Source: a virus
Virus record (IMG/VR): IMGVR_UViG_3300030117_004712
Span: 5,272-33,278 of that record
Length of the DNA: 28,007 nucleotides
Strand: one strand, 5' to 3'
Positions 13,390-27,621 of this stretch are shown here, piece after piece. A model generated the notes under the pieces. The model made no database searches and was not told where the DNA came from. It worked only from the letters and a program-made list of their open reading frames with translations. The position numbers and the translations under genes were made by a program. Numbering within the stretch: the first letter of the stretch is position 1; the number at the start of each line of letters is the position of its first letter.

Positions 13390-13547
13390 TGAATTGGCTT
13401 GGCAAATTACGACCTCAAATTTTCTTATCAATTATTGTTCTAGGTATATTATCTGTAGTTGGAATAATACATGGGCATAATGAAATTGCTAGTGGAGCTA
13501 TCGGAGGAATTATTGCACTGGGCATGAAAGTATTGGAAACAGAATGA
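13389..13547 (+). CDS. Two-helix membrane protein, holin candidate (52 aa)
   Basis: ATG 13389 uses the last A of the upstream TAA. The protein has a short basic N-terminus (MNWLGKLRP), hydrophobic helices at about residues 10-27 (QIFLSIIVLGILSVVGII) and 32-48 (EIASGAIGGIIALGMKV), and a short polar end. Small two-helix proteins in this position, between tail and accessory genes, are usual holin candidates. No endolysin is visible beside it, so the lysis role is unproven. Its stop overlaps the glycosyltransferase start (ATGA). Confidence 0.6.
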   Translation: MNWLGKLRPQIFLSIIVLGILSVVGIIHGHNEIASGAIGGIIALGMKVLETE

Positions 13548-14260
13548 TACCAAAAAAAATACATCAAATATTTTTTCAAATACATAAACCATTAGACCAA
13601 TTTCCGATATTTTTGAAAAGCATATCAGCAATACAAAAATATGCTCCTGAATATGACTACAAATTGTGGAATGAAACTGATTGTTTGAATTTGTTAGAAA
13701 AAGAATACCCAGTTTTTTTAAAATTTTATACAAAATTGCAAAAAATACAACAAATAGATTTTATGAAATATATTCTTATGTATCATTACGGTGGTTTTTA
13801 TATTGATTTAGATATTATTATGCTACAAAGTCCAAATGATTTAACAAATAAAAATTTATTATTACCTAAAGATTCAGGAAGAGCAAAATACAGAAATTCC
13901 ATGTTTGGTAGTGTGCCTCATCATGAATTATGGTTTGAATTATTAACTAATTGCGACACTAATTATAACGAAAAGAAAAAAATAGAAATATATCAAAAAT
14001 GGAAAGGCAGATTTGTTTTACAAACCACTGGCCCGTGGTATATGAGTAGGATTGCAAAAAAAGTGCTACCAAATCACAATGCCGATAAAGATATAATTTT
14101 TGACAGAGAATGTTCTGGCGAGTTAGAAGATAAAAATTATTATTTTATAGATTATGTGATTAACAGTTGGGTTGACCCTAAAAATAAAAATGCTTATGTA
14201 GCTACTTCTCCAAAAATGCAAAAATTTATAAAAAAATATTCAAGTAAAATCAATGAATAA
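13544..14260 (+). CDS. DXD-motif glycosyltransferase (Gly_transf_sug / OCH1-like)
   Basis: This 238-residue protein begins IPKKIHQIFF, the standard opening of the Gly_transf_sug family. It contains DFMKYILMYHYGGFYIDLDI at residues 72-91, with the metal and nucleotide-sugar binding D88-L-D90 within the usual YGGxYxDxD context. These enzymes transfer a sugar from a nucleotide donor. The acceptor is unknown and could be host surface glycan, a virion protein or hydroxymethylated DNA base. It is coupled by a 4-bp overlap to the holin candidate and by 8 bp to the methyltransferase that follows. Family assignment is firm and substrate is open. Confidence 0.85.
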   Translation: MIPKKIHQIFFQIHKPLDQFPIFLKSISAIQKYAPEYDYKLWNETDCLNLLEKEYPVFLKFYTKLQKIQQIDFMKYILMYHYGGFYIDLDIIMLQSPNDLTNKNLLLPKDSGRAKYRNSMFGSVPHHELWFELLTNCDTNYNEKKKIEIYQKWKGRFVLQTTGPWYMSRIAKKVLPNHNADKDIIFDRECSGELEDKNYYFIDYVINSWVDPKNKNAYVATSPKMQKFIKKYSSKINE

Positions 14261-14879
14261 TTTATATAAACATATAAGCGAAATAGACAACATAATAGGC
14301 GATGAAGAATTAGAAGGGAATTGTTTTTATGAACATAAACAAAAAGGTGTAGTAAGAAATGCTCAATCAGTTCGTGCTATGCGAAACAATTTAAAAACAT
14401 TAGGAAGTAAAGCAAAAAATATTTTAGAGATCGGATTTAATGCAGGTCATTCAGCAGTTTTATTTTTACATGATAATCCAAATGCTAAATATGTAGGAGT
14501 TGATATTGGTCGCCATGAATATACCGTGCCTTGTTTTTTATATTTAAAAAAGCATTTTAATATGGAATTAGAAATAGGGAATAGTAGAGAAGTTTTGAAA
14601 AATTATAAAACCTCAATTCCATTTGATTTGATTCACATTGACGGAGGTCATGGAAAAGACGCGGCATTAGCTGATTTACTTTTATGTAAAAAGTATTCAA
14701 ATGAAAATACATTGATTATTTTAGATGATACATCAACAATTCCTCATGTGAAAAAATTAGCAGAATTATTAATTGACTCTAAATATATAAAAGAAATAAA
14801 AATGAATGACATAAAATGTTTGGATACCGTACATCATAAAGTTTACAAATATAATTTTGAAACACCTGGACCAAGATAA
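14253..14879 (+). CDS. Class I SAM methyltransferase (Methyltransf_24-like)
   Basis: This 208-residue protein carries motif I ILEIGFNAGHSAVLFL (about residues 56-71), then VGVDIG, and a FDLIHIDGGHGKDAALADLL segment and LIILDDT typical of the Methyltransf_24 family of small-molecule and sugar O-methyltransferases. It overlaps the glycosyltransferase by 8 bp, suggesting methylation of the same glycan or acceptor. A CCTGGACC copy (14865-14872) lies in its final codons (ETPGPR). The true acceptor is unknown. Confidence 0.8.
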   Translation: MNNLYKHISEIDNIIGDEELEGNCFYEHKQKGVVRNAQSVRAMRNNLKTLGSKAKNILEIGFNAGHSAVLFLHDNPNAKYVGVDIGRHEYTVPCFLYLKKHFNMELEIGNSREVLKNYKTSIPFDLIHIDGGHGKDAALADLLLCKKYSNENTLIILDDTSTIPHVKKLAELLIDSKYIKEIKMNDIKCLDTVHHKVYKYNFETPGPR

Positions 14880-14883
14880 AATC

Positions 14884-15486
14884 ATGTATCAATTTAAAGA
14901 AAAATTTACACATATATACGATAAAGAACTTTGGGGAAAAGGAAGAGGCTCAGGCACTGGGAGTAGTTTGTTTTCAAACAAAAATTATATTCCATTTTTA
15001 GAAAAATTTTTAAAAGAAAACAATATTAAAAATGTACTTGATTATGGTTGCGGGGATTGGCAGTTTAGCAAATATGTTGATTGGGGCAATACAAATTATA
15101 CAGGAATAGATGTAGTTGATTCTGTTATAGAAAACAACAAACAACAATTTACAGAACACACTTATATATGCGACGATAATCCGTTTCCATATTTAAAAAA
15201 TAAAGATTTAATAATCATAAAAGATGTTTTACAACACTGGCCGAATATAGAAATAACAAATTTTATGGATAAATTAATTAAAGAAAATATTTTGATTCTT
15301 TTAGTTAATCAGGCAAATAATTCTGGTTTGCAAAATGGAAAAAGAAATATAAAAATTGGAGGATTTGCTACTTTAAAATATAACGAAGAACCATTAAATA
15401 AATATAATCCGAAATTAATTTTTAAATTTAGAAACAGGCAAGTATTATTGATAAAAGGAGGAACCAATGGATTTTCATCAATATAG
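14884..15486 (+). CDS. Class I SAM methyltransferase, second copy (200 aa)
   Basis: I place the start at ATG 14884 (MYQFKEKF), 4 bp after the upstream stop, rather than an in-frame TTG at 14857 that lies inside the neighbour. The protein has motif I NVLDYGCGDWQFSKYVDWG, then YTGIDVVDSVIENN and a KDVLQHW motif, a set seen in environmental-virus methyltransferases. There is no DNA-methylase (N/D)PPY or PCQ motif, so it probably acts on a small molecule, sugar or protein. It overlaps the nuclease gene by 20 bp. Together with the glycosyltransferase and the preceding methyltransferase it forms a three-gene modification cassette. Confidence 0.75.
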   Translation: MYQFKEKFTHIYDKELWGKGRGSGTGSSLFSNKNYIPFLEKFLKENNIKNVLDYGCGDWQFSKYVDWGNTNYTGIDVVDSVIENNKQQFTEHTYICDDNPFPYLKNKDLIIIKDVLQHWPNIEITNFMDKLIKENILILLVNQANNSGLQNGKRNIKIGGFATLKYNEEPLNKYNPKLIFKFRNRQVLLIKGGTNGFSSI

Positions 15487-16628: not shown

Positions 16629-16741
16629 TTTCAAAGGAGATGAATGATAATGAAATAATTCATTACAAATTCACTACTACAAATATATATCAACAAAAGA
16701 ACAATTTCAACCATAACCCATTAAAGAATGAATTGTTATAG

Positions 16742-16770
16742 TTGACATTATTTATTATAATGAATTAAAT
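16742..16770 (+). promoter_or_regulatory. Candidate promoter for the early gene module
   Basis: TTGACA at 16742-16747 is followed after 17 bp by TTAAAT (16765-16770); a perfect TATAAT also lies at 16756-16761 but too close to the -35 box to pair with it. It lies in the divergent gap between the reverse resolvase and the + strand regulator genes, where promoters are needed. Consensus -35 and correct spacing support a sigma-70-type promoter; the -10 box is only partial. Confidence 0.5.
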
Positions 16771-16791
16771 ACAATTTTATTGCGAGGTAGC

Positions 16792-17019
16792 ATGGCAACA
16801 CAGAATAATTCAATTCGGCAAAAAGCAACACCAGAAAAGCCAATCATTGTAGATGATTTGGTAATTTCAAGATTAAAAGAATATGATGATCATGCTTGGC
16901 ATAAATTAATGTATGTTTCTTTAATGACAGGAGTTGACGATTTAGTAAACAGAATAAATGAATTGGAAAAAATAATTGAGGAGCAAAATAATGCCAAAAC
17001 AAAAAATAGCAGAAAATGA
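16792..17019 (+). CDS. Small helical protein of unknown function (75 aa)
   Basis: ATG 16792 with GAGG a few bases upstream is preferred to an in-frame TTG at 16780. The protein has a polar N-terminus and a helical remainder ending in a short coiled coil (VDDLVNRINELEKIIEEQNN). It overlaps the next gene by 29 bp. Placed at the head of the early module, it may be regulatory, but no DNA-binding motif is visible and the family is unknown. Confidence 0.6.
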   Translation: MATQNNSIRQKATPEKPIIVDDLVISRLKEYDDHAWHKLMYVSLMTGVDDLVNRINELEKIIEEQNNAKTKNSRK

Positions 17020-17299
17020 TGTTTTAATTTTAAGAGATGAAAATCCTGATATGACTATGGCTGAAATAGGTAGGAATTTAGGAGTTTCAAGAGAAAGAGT
17101 TAGGCAAATATTAAATAATCATAATAAACCTACAAAAACGAAACCGAATGTACAAAAATATTTTTGTCCTAGATGTGGCAAAGGATATAAGCATGTTGAC
17201 CATTTTCCAAAAAAGACAGGATTGTGTTCAACTTGTTACAATAAATTACCATTATCAGTAAAACAACAACAAAGGAGGAATATGAAAAATATCTATTAA
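16991..17299 (+). CDS. HTH plus zinc-ribbon transcriptional regulator (102 aa)
   Basis: The start is ATG 16991 after a GAGG site, rather than TTG 16976. Residues about 21-42 (MTMAEIGRNLGVSRERVRQI) are a helix-turn-helix of the sigma-70 region 4 type (GVSRERVRQI is its recognition helix). Residues 59-82 form a CxxC...CxxC zinc ribbon (FCPRCGKGYK, LCSTCYNK). The combination suggests a small DNA-binding regulator of phage gene expression, perhaps acting on -35-like sites. The stop codon is part of the stem of a terminator. No core-binding sigma domain (region 2) is present, so it is not a complete sigma factor. Confidence 0.75.
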   Translation: MPKQKIAENDVLILRDENPDMTMAEIGRNLGVSRERVRQILNNHNKPTKTKPNVQKYFCPRCGKGYKHVDHFPKKTGLCSTCYNKLPLSVKQQQRRNMKNIY

Positions 17300-17345
17300 C
17301 AAGTTTAATCATATATACTTCGTATATATATAACTTGTTATTTTG
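17297..17345 (+). terminator. Rho-independent terminator after the regulator gene
   Basis: TAACAAGTT (17297-17305) pairs with AACTTGTTA (17332-17340). Inside it ATATATAC (17311-17318), loop TTC and GTATATAT (17322-17329) form a second stem, followed by TTTTG and further T residues. The first three bases of the stem are the stop codon of the regulator gene. The core palindrome recurs at 25201-25220 in the other orientation. Confidence 0.75.
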
Positions 17346-17373
17346 TTTATTAACACATTTTAGGAGATGAATT

Positions 17374-17808
17374 ATGGAAAATCAAATAAATTTACATGAT
17401 TTAAAAGATATGGATAGTTATGCTTTGGCAGAAGAGTATAACAAAACATACGAAAAATTCAAAACCGTAGAAAGGAATTTAGGAGTATTACAAGCTAGAG
17501 CCGACCAATTAAGTAGAGAAACTGGTGCAACGGTTTTCGTTGGAGATACTCATGAGTTACACATTACACAAAATTTAAAAACGGATAAAACAAAATTGAC
17601 TCCGTTATTGGAATTGATTCCACCTGAAGATTTAATTCGTGAGGGTGCCGTAGTGTTAGCTCACAAAGAAACAATAGATGTTCCTGATAAATGGAATTTA
17701 ACAAGATTAAAACCATTTGCAAAATACGGCAAGAAAATAAGTCAAATTATTGAGTCTTGCTATATTGGTGGGACAAATAAATATACATTAAAATTAAGGA
17801 GAAAATGA
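17374..17808 (+). CDS. Unknown early protein with N-terminal coiled coil (144 aa)
   Basis: This 144-residue protein has a helical, coiled-coil-like N-terminal half (LAEEYNKTYEKFKTVERNLG, VLQARADQLSRETG) and a mixed C-terminal half (LIREGAVVLAHKETIDVPDK, then YTLKLRRK). GGAG lies 7 bp before the ATG. Its position before the next gene by a 4-bp overlap, in the module with the replicative ATPase, fits a recombination or single-strand DNA accessory protein, but I see no diagnostic motif. Confidence 0.55.
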   Translation: MENQINLHDLKDMDSYALAEEYNKTYEKFKTVERNLGVLQARADQLSRETGATVFVGDTHELHITQNLKTDKTKLTPLLELIPPEDLIREGAVVLAHKETIDVPDKWNLTRLKPFAKYGKKISQIIESCYIGGTNKYTLKLRRK

Positions 17809-18596: not shown

Positions 18597-18892
18597 TGTC
18601 AAATTATACCTATCAAGAAATTGACCAATTAGAAGAAAATTTATCTATTCCTTATGTAAAACAATCATACACATACAATGAAATACTTGTCAGGTTATTG
18701 TGTCAGGCATTAAGGCAAAATAGATATTTAGCTGACCAAATAGGAAAATCGTGTACAGAGTCAAGAATGGCTTTTAACATTGTTAGTAAATTGGAAAGTA
18801 AAATAGAAAAAATTAATAGTAATGTAAATTTTCTTTTAGGAAATAATGCTCAATTTGAAAATGACCGAATAAAAGGATTAAAAATTGAATGA
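18596..18892 (+). CDS. Helical coiled-coil protein (98 aa)
   Basis: ATG 18596 overlaps the upstream TAA by one base and is preferred to TTG 18581. The protein is helical throughout, with a long coiled-coil end (FNIVSKLESKIEKINSNVNF) after a short SYTYNEILVRLLCQALRQ helix. No known motif is recognised. It directly precedes, and overlaps by 8 bp, the RepA-like ATPase, so it could be a helper or loader, although this is context only. Confidence 0.5.
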   Translation: MSNYTYQEIDQLEENLSIPYVKQSYTYNEILVRLLCQALRQNRYLADQIGKSCTESRMAFNIVSKLESKIEKINSNVNFLLGNNAQFENDRIKGLKIE

Positions 18893-20207
18893 GCATGAAA
18901 CTGGTTTAGATTTCCTAGAAAATAAAATTGTTAAAAGAGTAGGCGACTCGTGGAATTTTGAGTTTGCTAATATAAATATTCGTATTTATGTTGATAAAGT
19001 AAAACAAAATAGGTATGTAGGTGCCGAAATGGAATTTTCTTATATTAAACCTTTATTTGAAGGAAATTCACATATACATTGGAGTTCTGTTAATTTAGAC
19101 CAGTTATCAGGAGCAAACGGAAGAACTTCGCTAATCAAGTACATATCAAATATTGAAAAAGAAATTCAATATGCTGATTGGGAAAGATTGATTGAATTTG
19201 TTTGTATAACAGTAGTTAAACAAATGAGGGAAGGCGAAGATTTTATTAATTTAGCAACTGCAAATATTGTAGAAGATGAAGGACATATATTAAGTCCTAT
19301 ATTACCATTGAATCAGCCGTCTTTAATTTACGGCGACGGTGGTTCAGGGAAATCAATTTTGTCATTATGGTTTGCTAATTTAATATATCAGGGAGTTCAA
19401 ACAGATTGGGTAACGGCTTTGAAAAAAAATGTTTTGTATTTAGATTATGAAACGAATGTCAACGAAATGTACAAGCGTAATAATAAGTTAGGAAACGGAA
19501 TGAATTTAGATGTTCCGTCTGGCATAAAGTATCATAGATGTTTTCAGCCATTGTATTACATAGCTGAAGGCATTAAAAGAAAAATACAAGAGGAAAATAT
19601 TGGCTTTGTTATAGTTGATTCTGCGGCAATCGCTTGTGGAGCTGAACCTTCGTCTGAAAAAGCAACGACAGAATATTTTCAGGCAATAAGAAGTTTAGGA
19701 GAAGATATTACCGTTTTAACTATTGGCCATACAACAAAAGCTGAGGCTGAAAAGAAAAAGCCATTCGGTAGTGCTTTTTGGGAATATTTTTCACGGTCTG
19801 TTTGGGAAATAAAAAAAGAACAAGCAACAGAAGGTGGTATTCAAAATGTAGGTTTGTATCACAGGAAAGTGAACAACGGATTTTTACATGACCCAATTGG
19901 TTACCGAATACAGTTTTTAGCGAATGAAATAAACATCAACGGCTTTAATATAACTGATAGCCAAAACAATGATGGTAATTTGTCTAGAATACAAAGGATT
20001 TTCAATTACCTAAAAACACAGAATGATTATAAATCTATCACAGATATATGCGATGCTTTAAGTTTGGATTACGAAAATGAGCCAAGTATTAAAGCAAGTA
20101 TGTCTAGGGATAAAAATATAATGCACTTTGGGGAGGGCCAGTGGGGAGTGAAAGGTAAAGATTATAGTTTGAATGTAGACGAATTGTTAGAGTTTGGGAG
20201 TGAGTAA
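18885..20207 (+). CDS. RepA-like RecA-fold ATPase / replicative helicase candidate (440 aa)
   Basis: Residues about 145-290 form a RecA-like ATPase. Walker A GDGGSGKS is at 150-157, a VLYLDYET strand at 183-190 and Walker B FVIVDS at 241-246 with D245. A VLTIGHTTKA segment follows at 277-286, the expected sensor position. This matches the AAA_25/RepA group, whose RSF1010 RepA member is a hexameric helicase. The N-terminal 130 residues are unrelated to known primases. The C-terminal about 80 residues (ITDICDALSLDYENEPSIKA) look like a winged-helix. The start is TTG 18885 with an 8-bp upstream overlap, as no ATG gives an open frame nearby. It is the best candidate replication protein in the window. 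Confidence 0.75.
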   Translation: MNEHETGLDFLENKIVKRVGDSWNFEFANINIRIYVDKVKQNRYVGAEMEFSYIKPLFEGNSHIHWSSVNLDQLSGANGRTSLIKYISNIEKEIQYADWERLIEFVCITVVKQMREGEDFINLATANIVEDEGHILSPILPLNQPSLIYGDGGSGKSILSLWFANLIYQGVQTDWVTALKKNVLYLDYETNVNEMYKRNNKLGNGMNLDVPSGIKYHRCFQPLYYIAEGIKRKIQEENIGFVIVDSAAIACGAEPSSEKATTEYFQAIRSLGEDITVLTIGHTTKAEAEKKKPFGSAFWEYFSRSVWEIKKEQATEGGIQNVGLYHRKVNNGFLHDPIGYRIQFLANEININGFNITDSQNNDGNLSRIQRIFNYLKTQNDYKSITDICDALSLDYENEPSIKASMSRDKNIMHFGEGQWGVKGKDYSLNVDELLEFGSE

Positions 20208-21229: not shown

Positions 21230-21688
21230 ATGAAAGACACAATTTTAGAAACAAAGAAATACGCAAGATACCACTATGTAAAAGTGGACAACATGGAAGA
21301 GTTTAGATACAACTTTTTAAGTGAGCATAGTTTTTTGAAAGACCCAAATATCAATGCAATAGGTATATTCAAAAAGCACAGTTACACAGATTGGAAAAAC
21401 ATTAAAGAAGGTGACATTGTAACTGTAAAAGATGACTATGTGTACGAAAAACCTACTCAAAATGGTTATGTTCATACTAATAAAATGAAAGTTGGTAAAT
21501 GGAAAGTAACATCATGGGACATGAGTAAAAGAGGAATGGGAACATGGAAAGCTAAATTTTACACACCTACTATGAGTGGTGTAAAACTTAAACTTAGAGT
21601 AACAAACATTGAAACAGGTATGTCAAATGTTTTACAAATGCACGAAGTAGCAAAAGTTAAAAAATTAAGCGAAATTTTTCCTAAATAA
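21230..21688 (+). CDS. Unknown early protein (152 aa)
   Basis: This 152-residue basic protein is strand-rich (INAIGIFKKHSYTDWKNIKE, VTVKDDYVYEKPTQ, KMKVGKWKVTSWDM) and looks like a small beta-barrel, possibly an SH3- or PUA-like fold. An excellent AAGGAG site precedes the ATG. Its base and codon use (many ACA, AAA, AAC) suggest high expression. Together with the next gene it is preceded by the 17-bp leader repeat, suggesting common control. Function is unknown. Confidence 0.55.
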   Translation: MKDTILETKKYARYHYVKVDNMEEFRYNFLSEHSFLKDPNINAIGIFKKHSYTDWKNIKEGDIVTVKDDYVYEKPTQNGYVHTNKMKVGKWKVTSWDMSKRGMGTWKAKFYTPTMSGVKLKLRVTNIETGMSNVLQMHEVAKVKKLSEIFPK

Positions 21689-21698
21689 AATATTTAAT

Positions 21699-21715
21699 AT
21701 ATATTCATTAATCAA
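21699..21715 (+). repeat. Leader repeat ATATATTCATTAATCAA, copy 2
   Basis: This is an exact copy of the 17-bp leader at 21202-21218. Here it directly precedes GGGAGG and the ATG at 21728. The distance from repeat to start codon is nearly identical in both places (12 bp in each). Confidence 0.7.
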
Positions 21716-21727
21716 GGGAGGAAATAA

Positions 21728-21913
21728 ATGAGTTCAAAAATAGGATTCATACAACATCAAAGAAATCACAACTGGGTAGGGTCAGAAAATGCTCCAAAAG
21801 ATTGTGAATTCTGTCAGGCAAAAGTCAAAAATTTTGCTAGAAAGAAAAGATTGGCTACCTCAAAAGAGGCTGAGTCAATTTTAAACATTATCAAAGCCGT
21901 AAGAAAATTTTAA
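21728..21913 (+). CDS. Small CxxC protein (61 aa)
   Basis: This 61-residue basic protein has NWVGSENAPKDCEFCQAKV, with a single CEFC pair and nearby histidines (QHQRNHN), so a metal site is possible. A basic helical tail (ARKKRLATSKEAESILNIIK) follows. GGGAGG precedes the ATG. It may bind nucleic acid. No family is recognised. Confidence 0.55.
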   Translation: MSSKIGFIQHQRNHNWVGSENAPKDCEFCQAKVKNFARKKRLATSKEAESILNIIKAVRKF

Positions 21914-21925
21914 AGGAGAACAATT

Positions 21926-25190: not shown

Positions 25191-25228
25191 TTAACACATA
25201 TATATACGAAGTATATATATTGTGTTAA
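25191..25228. repeat. Long hairpin with GAA loop, shares core with the 17.3 kb terminator
   Basis: TTAACACATATATATAC (25191-25207) pairs with GTATATATATTGTGTTAA (25211-25228), with only one bulged base, around a GAA loop. No T-run follows on either strand, so termination is doubtful. The core (25201-25220) is the reverse complement of 17311-17330. The rest of 25080-25274 is AT-rich with no gene that I can support. Confidence 0.65.
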
Positions 25229-25624: not shown

Positions 25625-25820
25625 CCAGCCTTGACCCAGAGCATACACCAGTGCGATACCAGTCTTACACCAGCTACAATACCAGCATGATACCAGCATA
25701 CACCAGCGATTACCCAGATGAAGAGCCAGTTCGCAACCAGATGAGAGCCAGACGAAGAGCCAGATGTAAACCAGAGTAGATACCAGATGTAAACCAGATA
25801 AGAACCAGAGTAGATACCAG
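25625..25820. repeat. Phased array of 18 CCAG units, mean spacing about 11.3 bp
   Basis: CCAG begins at 25625, 25636, 25648, 25659, 25670, 25682, 25693, 25703, 25714, 25726, 25737, 25748, 25760, 25771, 25783, 25794, 25805 and 25817. Steps are 10, 11 or 12 bp. The preceding base is usually A (ACCAG); the following base is C or T in most of the first half and mostly A in the second. Intervening bases vary, apart from ACCAGAGTAGATACCAG at 25770 and again at 25804. Steps are not multiples of three and no open frame spans the array, so it is not coding. Roles to consider are a replication origin, packaging site or scaffold for a multimeric DNA- or RNA-binding protein. Confidence 0.9.
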
Positions 25821-26017
25821 AGTAGCGGAAAGTGCTGGCATCGTTACTTCACGAGTCCGTAAAGGACGTCTTAATCCTTTTTATGTGTAAACACCTGGAC
25901 CATCAGCAAACAGGACGGCAGAGGACATCGCATACAGGGGAAGGGGGGAATGTATTTTTAGCATGATCGTCTATCAGATCGCGGGACAAGTTAGCACAAT
26001 ATAGAAACTTTTGAAAA
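25821..26017. other. Non-coding stretch with no supported gene
   Basis: I see no supportable gene here. It contains an inverted CTGG (25835), a short hairpin with T-run (25861-25882), one CCTGGACC copy (25894-25901) and a G-rich run at about 25936-25949. G+C is high up to about 25985 and then drops to the AT-rich promoter region. Confidence 0.6.
25861..25882 (+). terminator. Weak terminator-like hairpin after the CCAG array
   Basis: AAAGGA (25861-25866) pairs with TCCTTT (25875-25880) around an 8-base loop, followed by further T residues. The 6-bp stem is short, so efficiency would be modest. It could end a transcript crossing the small gene and CCAG array. Confidence 0.4.
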
Positions 26018-26080
26018 TAATTGACAATATTTAATATTTTTTTAGAAAAGACCTTTATTATAATTGACAATGTTTAATAC
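26018..26080. promoter_or_regulatory. Tandem repeats with TTGACA boxes upstream of the 26.1 kb genes
   Basis: TAATTGACAATATTTAATAT (26018-26037) and TAATTGACAATGTTTAATAC (26061-26080) match at 18 of 20 positions and are 43 bp apart, close to four helical turns. Each holds a perfect TTGACA. Matching -10 boxes at 17 bp are poor, so they may be operators, activator-dependent promoters or both. The next gene starts at 26128. Confidence 0.6.
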
Positions 26081-26127: not shown

Positions 26128-26613
26128 ATGAAATTAAACGAAATTAAGATAGCCGTTGACAACTGGGCTGACGCATACAACCATAATTTTAATATGGCGA
26201 ACCGTGAGATAGTGCATTGGGAAAATTGCAGTTATTATGTAATTAAACGGCCGAAACTCATTCCATTTAAATATGAAATTGTATATAAGCCGAATATGAA
26301 TTCGGTTGGATTAACTCACAAAGACGGACATACTTTAAATGGAAAAAAATCACAATTTTATATTTGTAAAGGAATTGAGTGTACTCATGAAATGCTAGAT
26401 GTAATGGAACGATTTGAAAAGAGATTCAAACCTAGAAATTTCAACGAAACTATTGAGTTAGTAAAAAAAGAAACAGGAATAAAAATTTTCAATCGTGTTA
26501 CCGAACTAATGAACGATTTGGAATGGGAAAAAGACAGAATGTCTAGTAGTGGGCAAGAAACTTTAGATAAATATTGGAAATTGCTTGACCAATTTAGAAA
26601 AGGGAAGTTATAG
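26128..26613 (+). CDS. Unknown early protein (161 aa)
   Basis: This 161-residue basic protein has an aromatic strand-rich first half (HWENCSYYVIKRPKLIPFKY, EIVYKPNMNSVG) and a helical second half (ELVKKETGIKIFNRVTELMN, DKYWKLLDQFRKGKL). It is the first gene after the tandem TTGACA repeats and is preceded by AAGGGAG. No known motif or family is recognised. Confidence 0.55.
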   Translation: MKLNEIKIAVDNWADAYNHNFNMANREIVHWENCSYYVIKRPKLIPFKYEIVYKPNMNSVGLTHKDGHTLNGKKSQFYICKGIECTHEMLDVMERFEKRFKPRNFNETIELVKKETGIKIFNRVTELMNDLEWEKDRMSSSGQETLDKYWKLLDQFRKGKL

Positions 26614-26937: not shown

Positions 26938-27621
26938 ATGGAAATCAAGGATAGAGTAAAAGAATTTAAACGAATAAAAGCAAGTGAATTAAAAGCCAAT
27001 CCAAAAAATTGGCGACTCCACGACTCTATACAACGAGAGGCACTTCAATCAGTTTTAAATAATGTCGGAATGGCAGGAGCCGTTGTAGTTTATGAAAATA
27101 AAGATAAAGAATTTGTTATAATAGACGGCCATTTAAGAGCTGATATAAATGATAACCAAGAAGTTCCTACTCTTATTTTAGATGTTAATGAAGAAGAGGC
27201 TGATTTATTGTTAGCTACTTATGACCCAATTTCAGAAATGGCAAAGTCAGATAATACAATGTTGAGTGATTTGTTGAAAACGATTGACACTGGCGACGAA
27301 AATTTACAGACTTTATTACATGATATTGACGAAAATTTTGGATTAATTGAGTCAGAATTGCCTGAACAAGAAACTGATGCTTTTTATTTGCAAAATCCAA
27401 TAGCTGAAAGAAATGCTCAAGACGATTTGCTAGACCCTGGACCAGACGATTCTCCAAGAGAAATAGATGAAAAAGAAGAGTTGACAGTAGTTGTAGTGTA
27501 TGTTGAAAAATCTAAACAAGAAAAATTCAAAGAAAATATTAGTAAAATGGGAACAAAATGGAGCATAGATAACCATTCTGATATCATTGTAAAAGCATTA
27601 GAGGAGTTAGCAAATGAGTGA
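26938..27621 (+). CDS. ParB-like nuclease-domain protein (227 aa)
   Basis: The N-terminal domain has FKRIKASELKANPKNWRLHD (residues 10-29) and FVIIDGHLRAD (59-69), the hallmark ParB/sulfiredoxin-fold motif found in phage ParB-like proteins. A helical part with NEEEADLLLATYDPISEMAK follows, then an acidic linker (about 133-170, holding a CCTGGACC copy in DPGPD) and a strand-helix end (ELTVVVVYVEKSKQEKFKEN). Phage ParB-like proteins often accompany DNA methylases and base-modification enzymes, which matches the overlapping TET-like gene. No ribosome site precedes the ATG, in line with the leaderless promoter. Whether it is a nuclease or a DNA-binding adaptor is unknown. Confidence 0.8.
   Translation: MEIKDRVKEFKRIKASELKANPKNWRLHDSIQREALQSVLNNVGMAGAVVVYENKDKEFVIIDGHLRADINDNQEVPTLILDVNEEEADLLLATYDPISEMAKSDNTMLSDLLKTIDTGDENLQTLLHDIDENFGLIESELPEQETDAFYLQNPIAERNAQDDLLDPGPDDSPREIDEKEELTVVVVYVEKSKQEKFKENISKMGTKWSIDNHSDIIVKALEELANE

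Follow-up and report, generated by a model that had tools for sequence, protein, structure and literature searches.

What is served by eighteen copies of a four-letter word, set at nearly regular steps behind a small phage gene? The locus lies in a stretch of 28,007 bp, hereafter the window, which represents bases 5272-33278 of a 33,278-bp IMG/VR contig. The source virus is siphophage-like, with a capsid/tail block of the HK97 type. The features of the locus, with window coordinates unless otherwise indicated, are the following.

18885..20207, plus strand: helicase-type ATPase AAA_25 (RepA/KaiC-like), also found upstream of the locus in the relatives G001 and G012
25191..25228, no strand assigned: AT-rich 38-bp inverted repeat, TTAACACATATATATAC-GAA-GTATATATATTGTGTTAA, upstream of P0001
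25275..25601, plus strand: P0001, a small gene of 108 aa, an orphan family conserved at the locus in relatives
25625..25820, plus strand: 18 CCAG (ACCAG in most units) stepped by 10-12 nt, with random linkers
25690..25702, plus strand: ATACCAGCATACA within the array, also present in the single site that L161 has next to its G-run; G008 shares ATACCAGCATA
25714..25825, plus strand: second, younger half of the array, with 23/34-bp duplications (ATGTAAA, AGTAGATA and GAAGAG linkers)
25930..25959, plus strand: G-run element GCATACAGGGGAAGGGGGGAATGTATTTTT, of which relatives keep CATAYAGGGGGGGTATCRTATTT
26017..26079, plus strand: AT-rich stretch in which ATAATTGACAATRTTTAATA, a promoter-like TTGACA box, occurs twice
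Window 26128-26613, G001rc 16673-17458 and G012rc 21328-21920: variable gene after the G-run and promoter

The phased CCAG array is confirmed as a real feature. Its 18 copies occupy 196 bases of the plus strand, the first at 25625 and the last at 25817-25820, with successive steps of 11, 12, 11, 11, 12, 11, 10, 11, 12, 11, 11, 12, 11, 12, 11, 11 and 12. The original observation, of 18 CCAG at 10-12 steps with a period of about 11.3, is borne out by a mean step of 11.29 and a regression slope of 11.25. The longest chain of any tetramer at such steps was 5 in 2000 dinucleotide shuffles of the region, and 4 in 60 shuffles of the whole window, against the 18 observed. Moreover, no other tetramer chain of at least 8 was found at 10-12 steps in 1.04 Mb, namely, the window plus 86 loci from two terminase scans.

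The CCAG columns have an identity of 1.0 (18/18 units), whereas pairwise identity in the linker columns is 0.23-0.40, with 0.30 expected from composition, as anticipated by the description of the linkers as largely variable. Only the base directly before CCAG, mostly A, is raised among linker columns (0.51). The combination of an invariant tetramer and linkers at background diversity calls for tetramer-specific recognition. G follows CCAG in none of the 18 units, for which the chance is about 4% given 16% G elsewhere; the explanation previously offered, avoidance of CCWGG, is weak, as this word occurs 16 times against 21.6 +/- 4.3 expected and is not significantly avoided. It had also been proposed that the sites wind gradually round the helix. 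For such a long-range helical clock the jitter test gave no support, since reordered steps are equally straight (P = 0.24) and the jitter is no better than that of independent steps; the spacing is therefore local, with no tie to the helix at longer range.

All three plus frames are interrupted by stops within the array, and it is spanned by no ORF of at least 60 aa, which rules out a coding repeat and agrees with its having been called non-coding. CRISPR was likewise rightly set aside: CRISPR arrays have unique spacers between repeats of about 23-47 bp, against a 4-bp repeat and 6-8 bp linkers here. Compared with Rfam families, the array came nowhere near any gathering score, and its RNA folding is unremarkable (z = 0.11). 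This led us to reject a structured RNA, and counts for DNA as the functional form.

The claim that the repeat is positional and not a copy repeat holds overall, with the linkers at background, but fails for the second half (25714-25820), in which 23- and 34-bp tandem duplications are still recognisable, so that the array is partly a copy repeat. Apart from these duplications, the similarity across the whole unit that defines tandem repeats or minisatellites is missing. The duplications show the mode by which the array grew.

The first CCAG begins 23 nt past the stop codon of P0001, and no intrinsic terminator was found after that stop. The GC content of P0001 and the array is 0.46-0.48, against 0.33; because the GC of P0001 is also raised in the relatives checked, the elevated value belongs to the locus and is no proof of recent transfer. 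P0001 has no family match in Pfam or NCBIfam, and its fold prediction is of low confidence (pLDDT 51.5), with no PDB match. Searching P0001 alone in viral contigs and plasmids gave no match, nor did P0001 plus three homologues as queries in the phages collection, and the six loci recovered by a TerL search of genome contigs all lack it. Homologues were nevertheless found in G001, G012, G008 and G006, as well as in L148, L150, L151 and L161, some of which are very similar phages; the alignment comprises seven sequences, several nearly identical.

The layout of the locus is a conserved one, in which an AT palindrome comes first, P0001 next and the repeats after it, before the G-run, the AT-rich stretch and the TTGACA box. 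The G-run is present in all relatives read, and palindromes comparable to that at 25191..25228 occur at the same place wherever the contig reaches. In L161 a −10-like hexamer comes after the TTGACA box, at 17 nt. The window does not exceed shuffled sequence in its number of promoter-like boxes, and the case for a promoter is therefore based on the conservation of the TTGACA box in relatives.

What occupies the repeat position differs between phages. Directly after its P0001, G001 has an unrelated 11-unit degenerate array of about 220 bp (L152:4226-4450, reversed contig), with 69% self-identity at a shift of 20 bp and at no other tested shift. CC, T9 and G15 are invariant in its ten aligned units, and its RNA folds better than shuffles (z −2.63). 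In L161 and G008 there is a single ATACCAGCATAYA beside the G-run, matching units of the CCAG array; the alignments of these sites to the array beat shuffles with P = 0.006 and 0.008, values uncorrected for the eight comparisons made. Homology between the G001 array and the single sites was rejected (P > 0.2). No long array was found at the locus in G012, L161 or G008, which indicates that the array is not essential to core function, and long arrays here are known from two phages only, the window phage and G001. A scan with the capsid protein gave 13 relatives, several of them short fragments, none with even three phased CCAG. The expectation that spacing would be conserved in relatives was thus not upheld: relatives have another array, one lone site or nothing of the kind, and position alone is conserved. 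The place is therefore a conserved one, used for repeats, with rapid replacement of the repeat itself. Given the single sites in L161 and G008, an earlier site was probably the starting point of the CCAG array, which was then kept by selection on CCAG.

The array is best read as a set of protein binding sites, as originally proposed. Our preferred reading, to which we assign a probability of roughly 0.4, is that it is a double-stranded DNA site bound by an oligomerising phage protein that controls an adjacent promoter or origin. The array would serve as a protein-loading site in duplex form, each (A)CCAG being bound by a sequence-specific protein. The most economical candidate for this protein would be the P0001 product, or otherwise another small phage DNA-binding protein; the other small DNA-binding candidates in the window are encoded at 16976-17299 and 26938-27621. 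Neighbouring protein units would be spaced by about 11 bp, slightly over one turn, and would cover or wrap some 200 bp; the one-base tolerance in spacing suits a flexible oligomer. The complex would act on its flanks, either regulating the TTGACA-box promoter that may drive the next operon or helping to open AT-rich DNA so that replication can start. Both roles are suggested by what lies ahead of the array, a promoter-like box and AT-rich DNA. Tandem duplication of one ancestral ATACCAGCATACA site next to the G-run may have given rise to the array, a direction of growth that we infer, with linkers drifting freely while selection would hold CCAG.

Several observations count for this reading, besides the invariance of CCAG among linkers at background diversity. 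The location 3' of P0001 and 5' of the conserved G-run, AT-rich stretch and TTGACA box, in a locus with AT palindromes, is common to relatives. G001 has an independent repeat array, comparable in length at about 220 bp, in exactly this position, and matching single sites occur in L161 and G008. Against it stand the lack of a helical clock, the lack of the array in G012, L161 and G008, and the lack of a fold or family match for P0001. Moreover, the G001 array is built of 20-bp, roughly dyadic units and the CCAG array of direct 11-bp repeats, which would be odd if one protein family binds both. A bolder version, which we consider rather unlikely, is that the P0001 family uses rapidly replaced DNA arrays as its binding platform, in the form of 11-bp CCAG direct repeats, 20-bp degenerate units or a single site according to lineage; this would be a novel system for filament/centromere-like or origin control, one that evolves fast and keeps nothing but tetramer and spacing. 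If P0001 does bind the array, a role is found for an orphan phage gene family, and from lineage to lineage the array unit can be paired with the protein. The array is also a clean natural case in which selection acts on four letters and their spacing while the linkers are left nearly free, and close relatives at the locus reveal how such arrays arise and are replaced.

The closest analogues are the tetramer boxes of parH (PMC7308502) and other wrapped operator or centromere arrays (PMC5016525). In the parH/OF sites of plasmid TP228, as in the array, tetramer boxes alternate with AT-rich spacers, and the small coating protein, ParG, also represses transcription (PMC7308502); parH boxes are degenerate, however, whereas CCAG is invariant. 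No ParF/ParG-like pair was found with the array. The parC site of plasmid R1 and the tubC site of TubZRC, too, are near one-turn direct repeats that serve as operators, with DNA wrapped on a protein helix, and omega and ParR, which likewise wrap short iterons, have a second role as repressors (PMC5016525). The CCAG array conserves only 4-5 of 11 bp, in contrast to the whole repeat of parC and tubC, and no ParM or TubZ gene accompanies it. Repeat lengths in these two sites are 11 and 12 bp.

This likeness of form, short repeats about 11 bp apart and near one turn in spacing, is what speaks for a partition centromere of a plasmid-like phage, of the ParR/parC, ParG/parH or TubR/tubC type. We regard this as very unlikely, as the Pfam-scanned ORFs of the window include no ParM, TubZ or ParA-type ATPase but only AAA_25, although the contig itself is short of a few kb and the absence thus not complete. 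The ParB-like partner originally suggested has a homologue in G001, which has no CCAG array, and nothing ties it to the array. Disfavoured along with partition is packaging: pac/cos had been among the suggested roles, but in relatives the TerS-like gene is reached only about 1.6 kb (G012) to about 5 kb (G001) downstream of the locus, across which contigs continue without a break. Iterons are our second choice of analogue. Phage and plasmid iterons, too, stand beside an AT-rich stretch, and those of IncQ oriV also beside a GC-rich one. In the window the array, G-run and AT-rich stretch follow in order, and the layout from AT palindromes through gene and repeats to G-run and AT-rich DNA resembles ori-lambda, whose iterons adjoin an AT-rich region (PMC7466680). 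A replication origin, with the repeats bound by a phage initiator beside the unwinding stretch and G-run so as to load the AAA_25 helicase, whose gene lies upstream in the same phages, would account for this, yet seems to us unlikely. P0001 does not adjoin the helicase gene, the array is absent from several relatives, and its 11.25-bp unit with one tetramer is far shorter than the typical 17-22 bp of iterons (about 20 bp in phages and plasmids, as in G001). The predicted GC-skew switch is also missing, the skew being positive almost throughout, a weak test where nearly all genes lie on one strand.

Read as RNA, the array would offer CC every 11 nt after the P0001 stop, and might load Rho to end the operon before the next promoter, or titrate Rho. 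Like rut sites, it has C regularly spaced downstream of a stop codon, and rut predictors seek a C/G ratio above 1 together with C recurring at 11-13 nt (PMC6407284). On the contig's sense strand no other pyrimidine-C chain at 9-13 nt is as long as that of the array (18; the next is 9), which lies in untranslated RNA, just past a stop codon that lacks an intrinsic terminator. Rho, however, does not read AG, for which rut has no requirement, and A and G are invariant in 18/18 units; the C/G ratio is only 1.29, with other segments reaching 1.8, and the pattern is missing from the G001 array, leaving this explanation quite improbable. We are equally doubtful of a functionless minisatellite, born of slippage and decaying or drifting. 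The duplications retained in the second half and the lack of conservation in relatives would agree with it, as would the finding that phased CCAG arrays in a few unrelated viral contigs are no commoner than those of the reversed word (6 versus 5), but neutral drift would strike CCAG and linkers alike, and here the linkers are randomised and CCAG is perfect. Scarcely credible, finally, is a row of primase start sites. The bottom strand carries 18 CTG, within a 5'-CTGG every 11 nt, a spacing of about one primer length. CTG is the word primed by gammaproteobacterial primases (PMC5204125), which may not be those of the host; the fourth letter and the A before CCAG go unexplained, and the G001 array has no such pattern.

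Turning to other viruses, a loose CCAG pattern was found in at least 119 stretches of viral contigs, many of which are 11-bp tandem repeats with few linker types. The stricter 12-11-11-12 phasing gave six stretches for CCAG and five for the reversed word GACC, and CCAG arrays were accordingly rejected as a widespread viral element. A coding look-alike occurs at L079:6866-7122, where 24 CCAG at exactly 11 bp apparently form an 11-residue coding repeat from an ATG.

Beyond the array, the gene after the G-run and promoter varies by lineage, being an orphan of 161 aa, a PP-loop-like protein or another orphan, and this position appears to be an exchange spot for accessory genes. Elsewhere in the window, 16976-17299 encodes a small protein, conserved in G001 and G012, that combines a sigma-70 region 4 HTH with what may be a zinc ribbon at the C-terminus. 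At 13544-15486 lie a glycosyltransferase gene and two methyltransferase-like genes for which no homologues occur in the compared relatives, likely a moron cassette. A non-coding CCAGG array with 11/12 bp spacing is shared by L123:7291-7370, L085:2861-2932 and L032; flanked in L123 by AAATTGAATG repeats, it looks like a separate element of its own.
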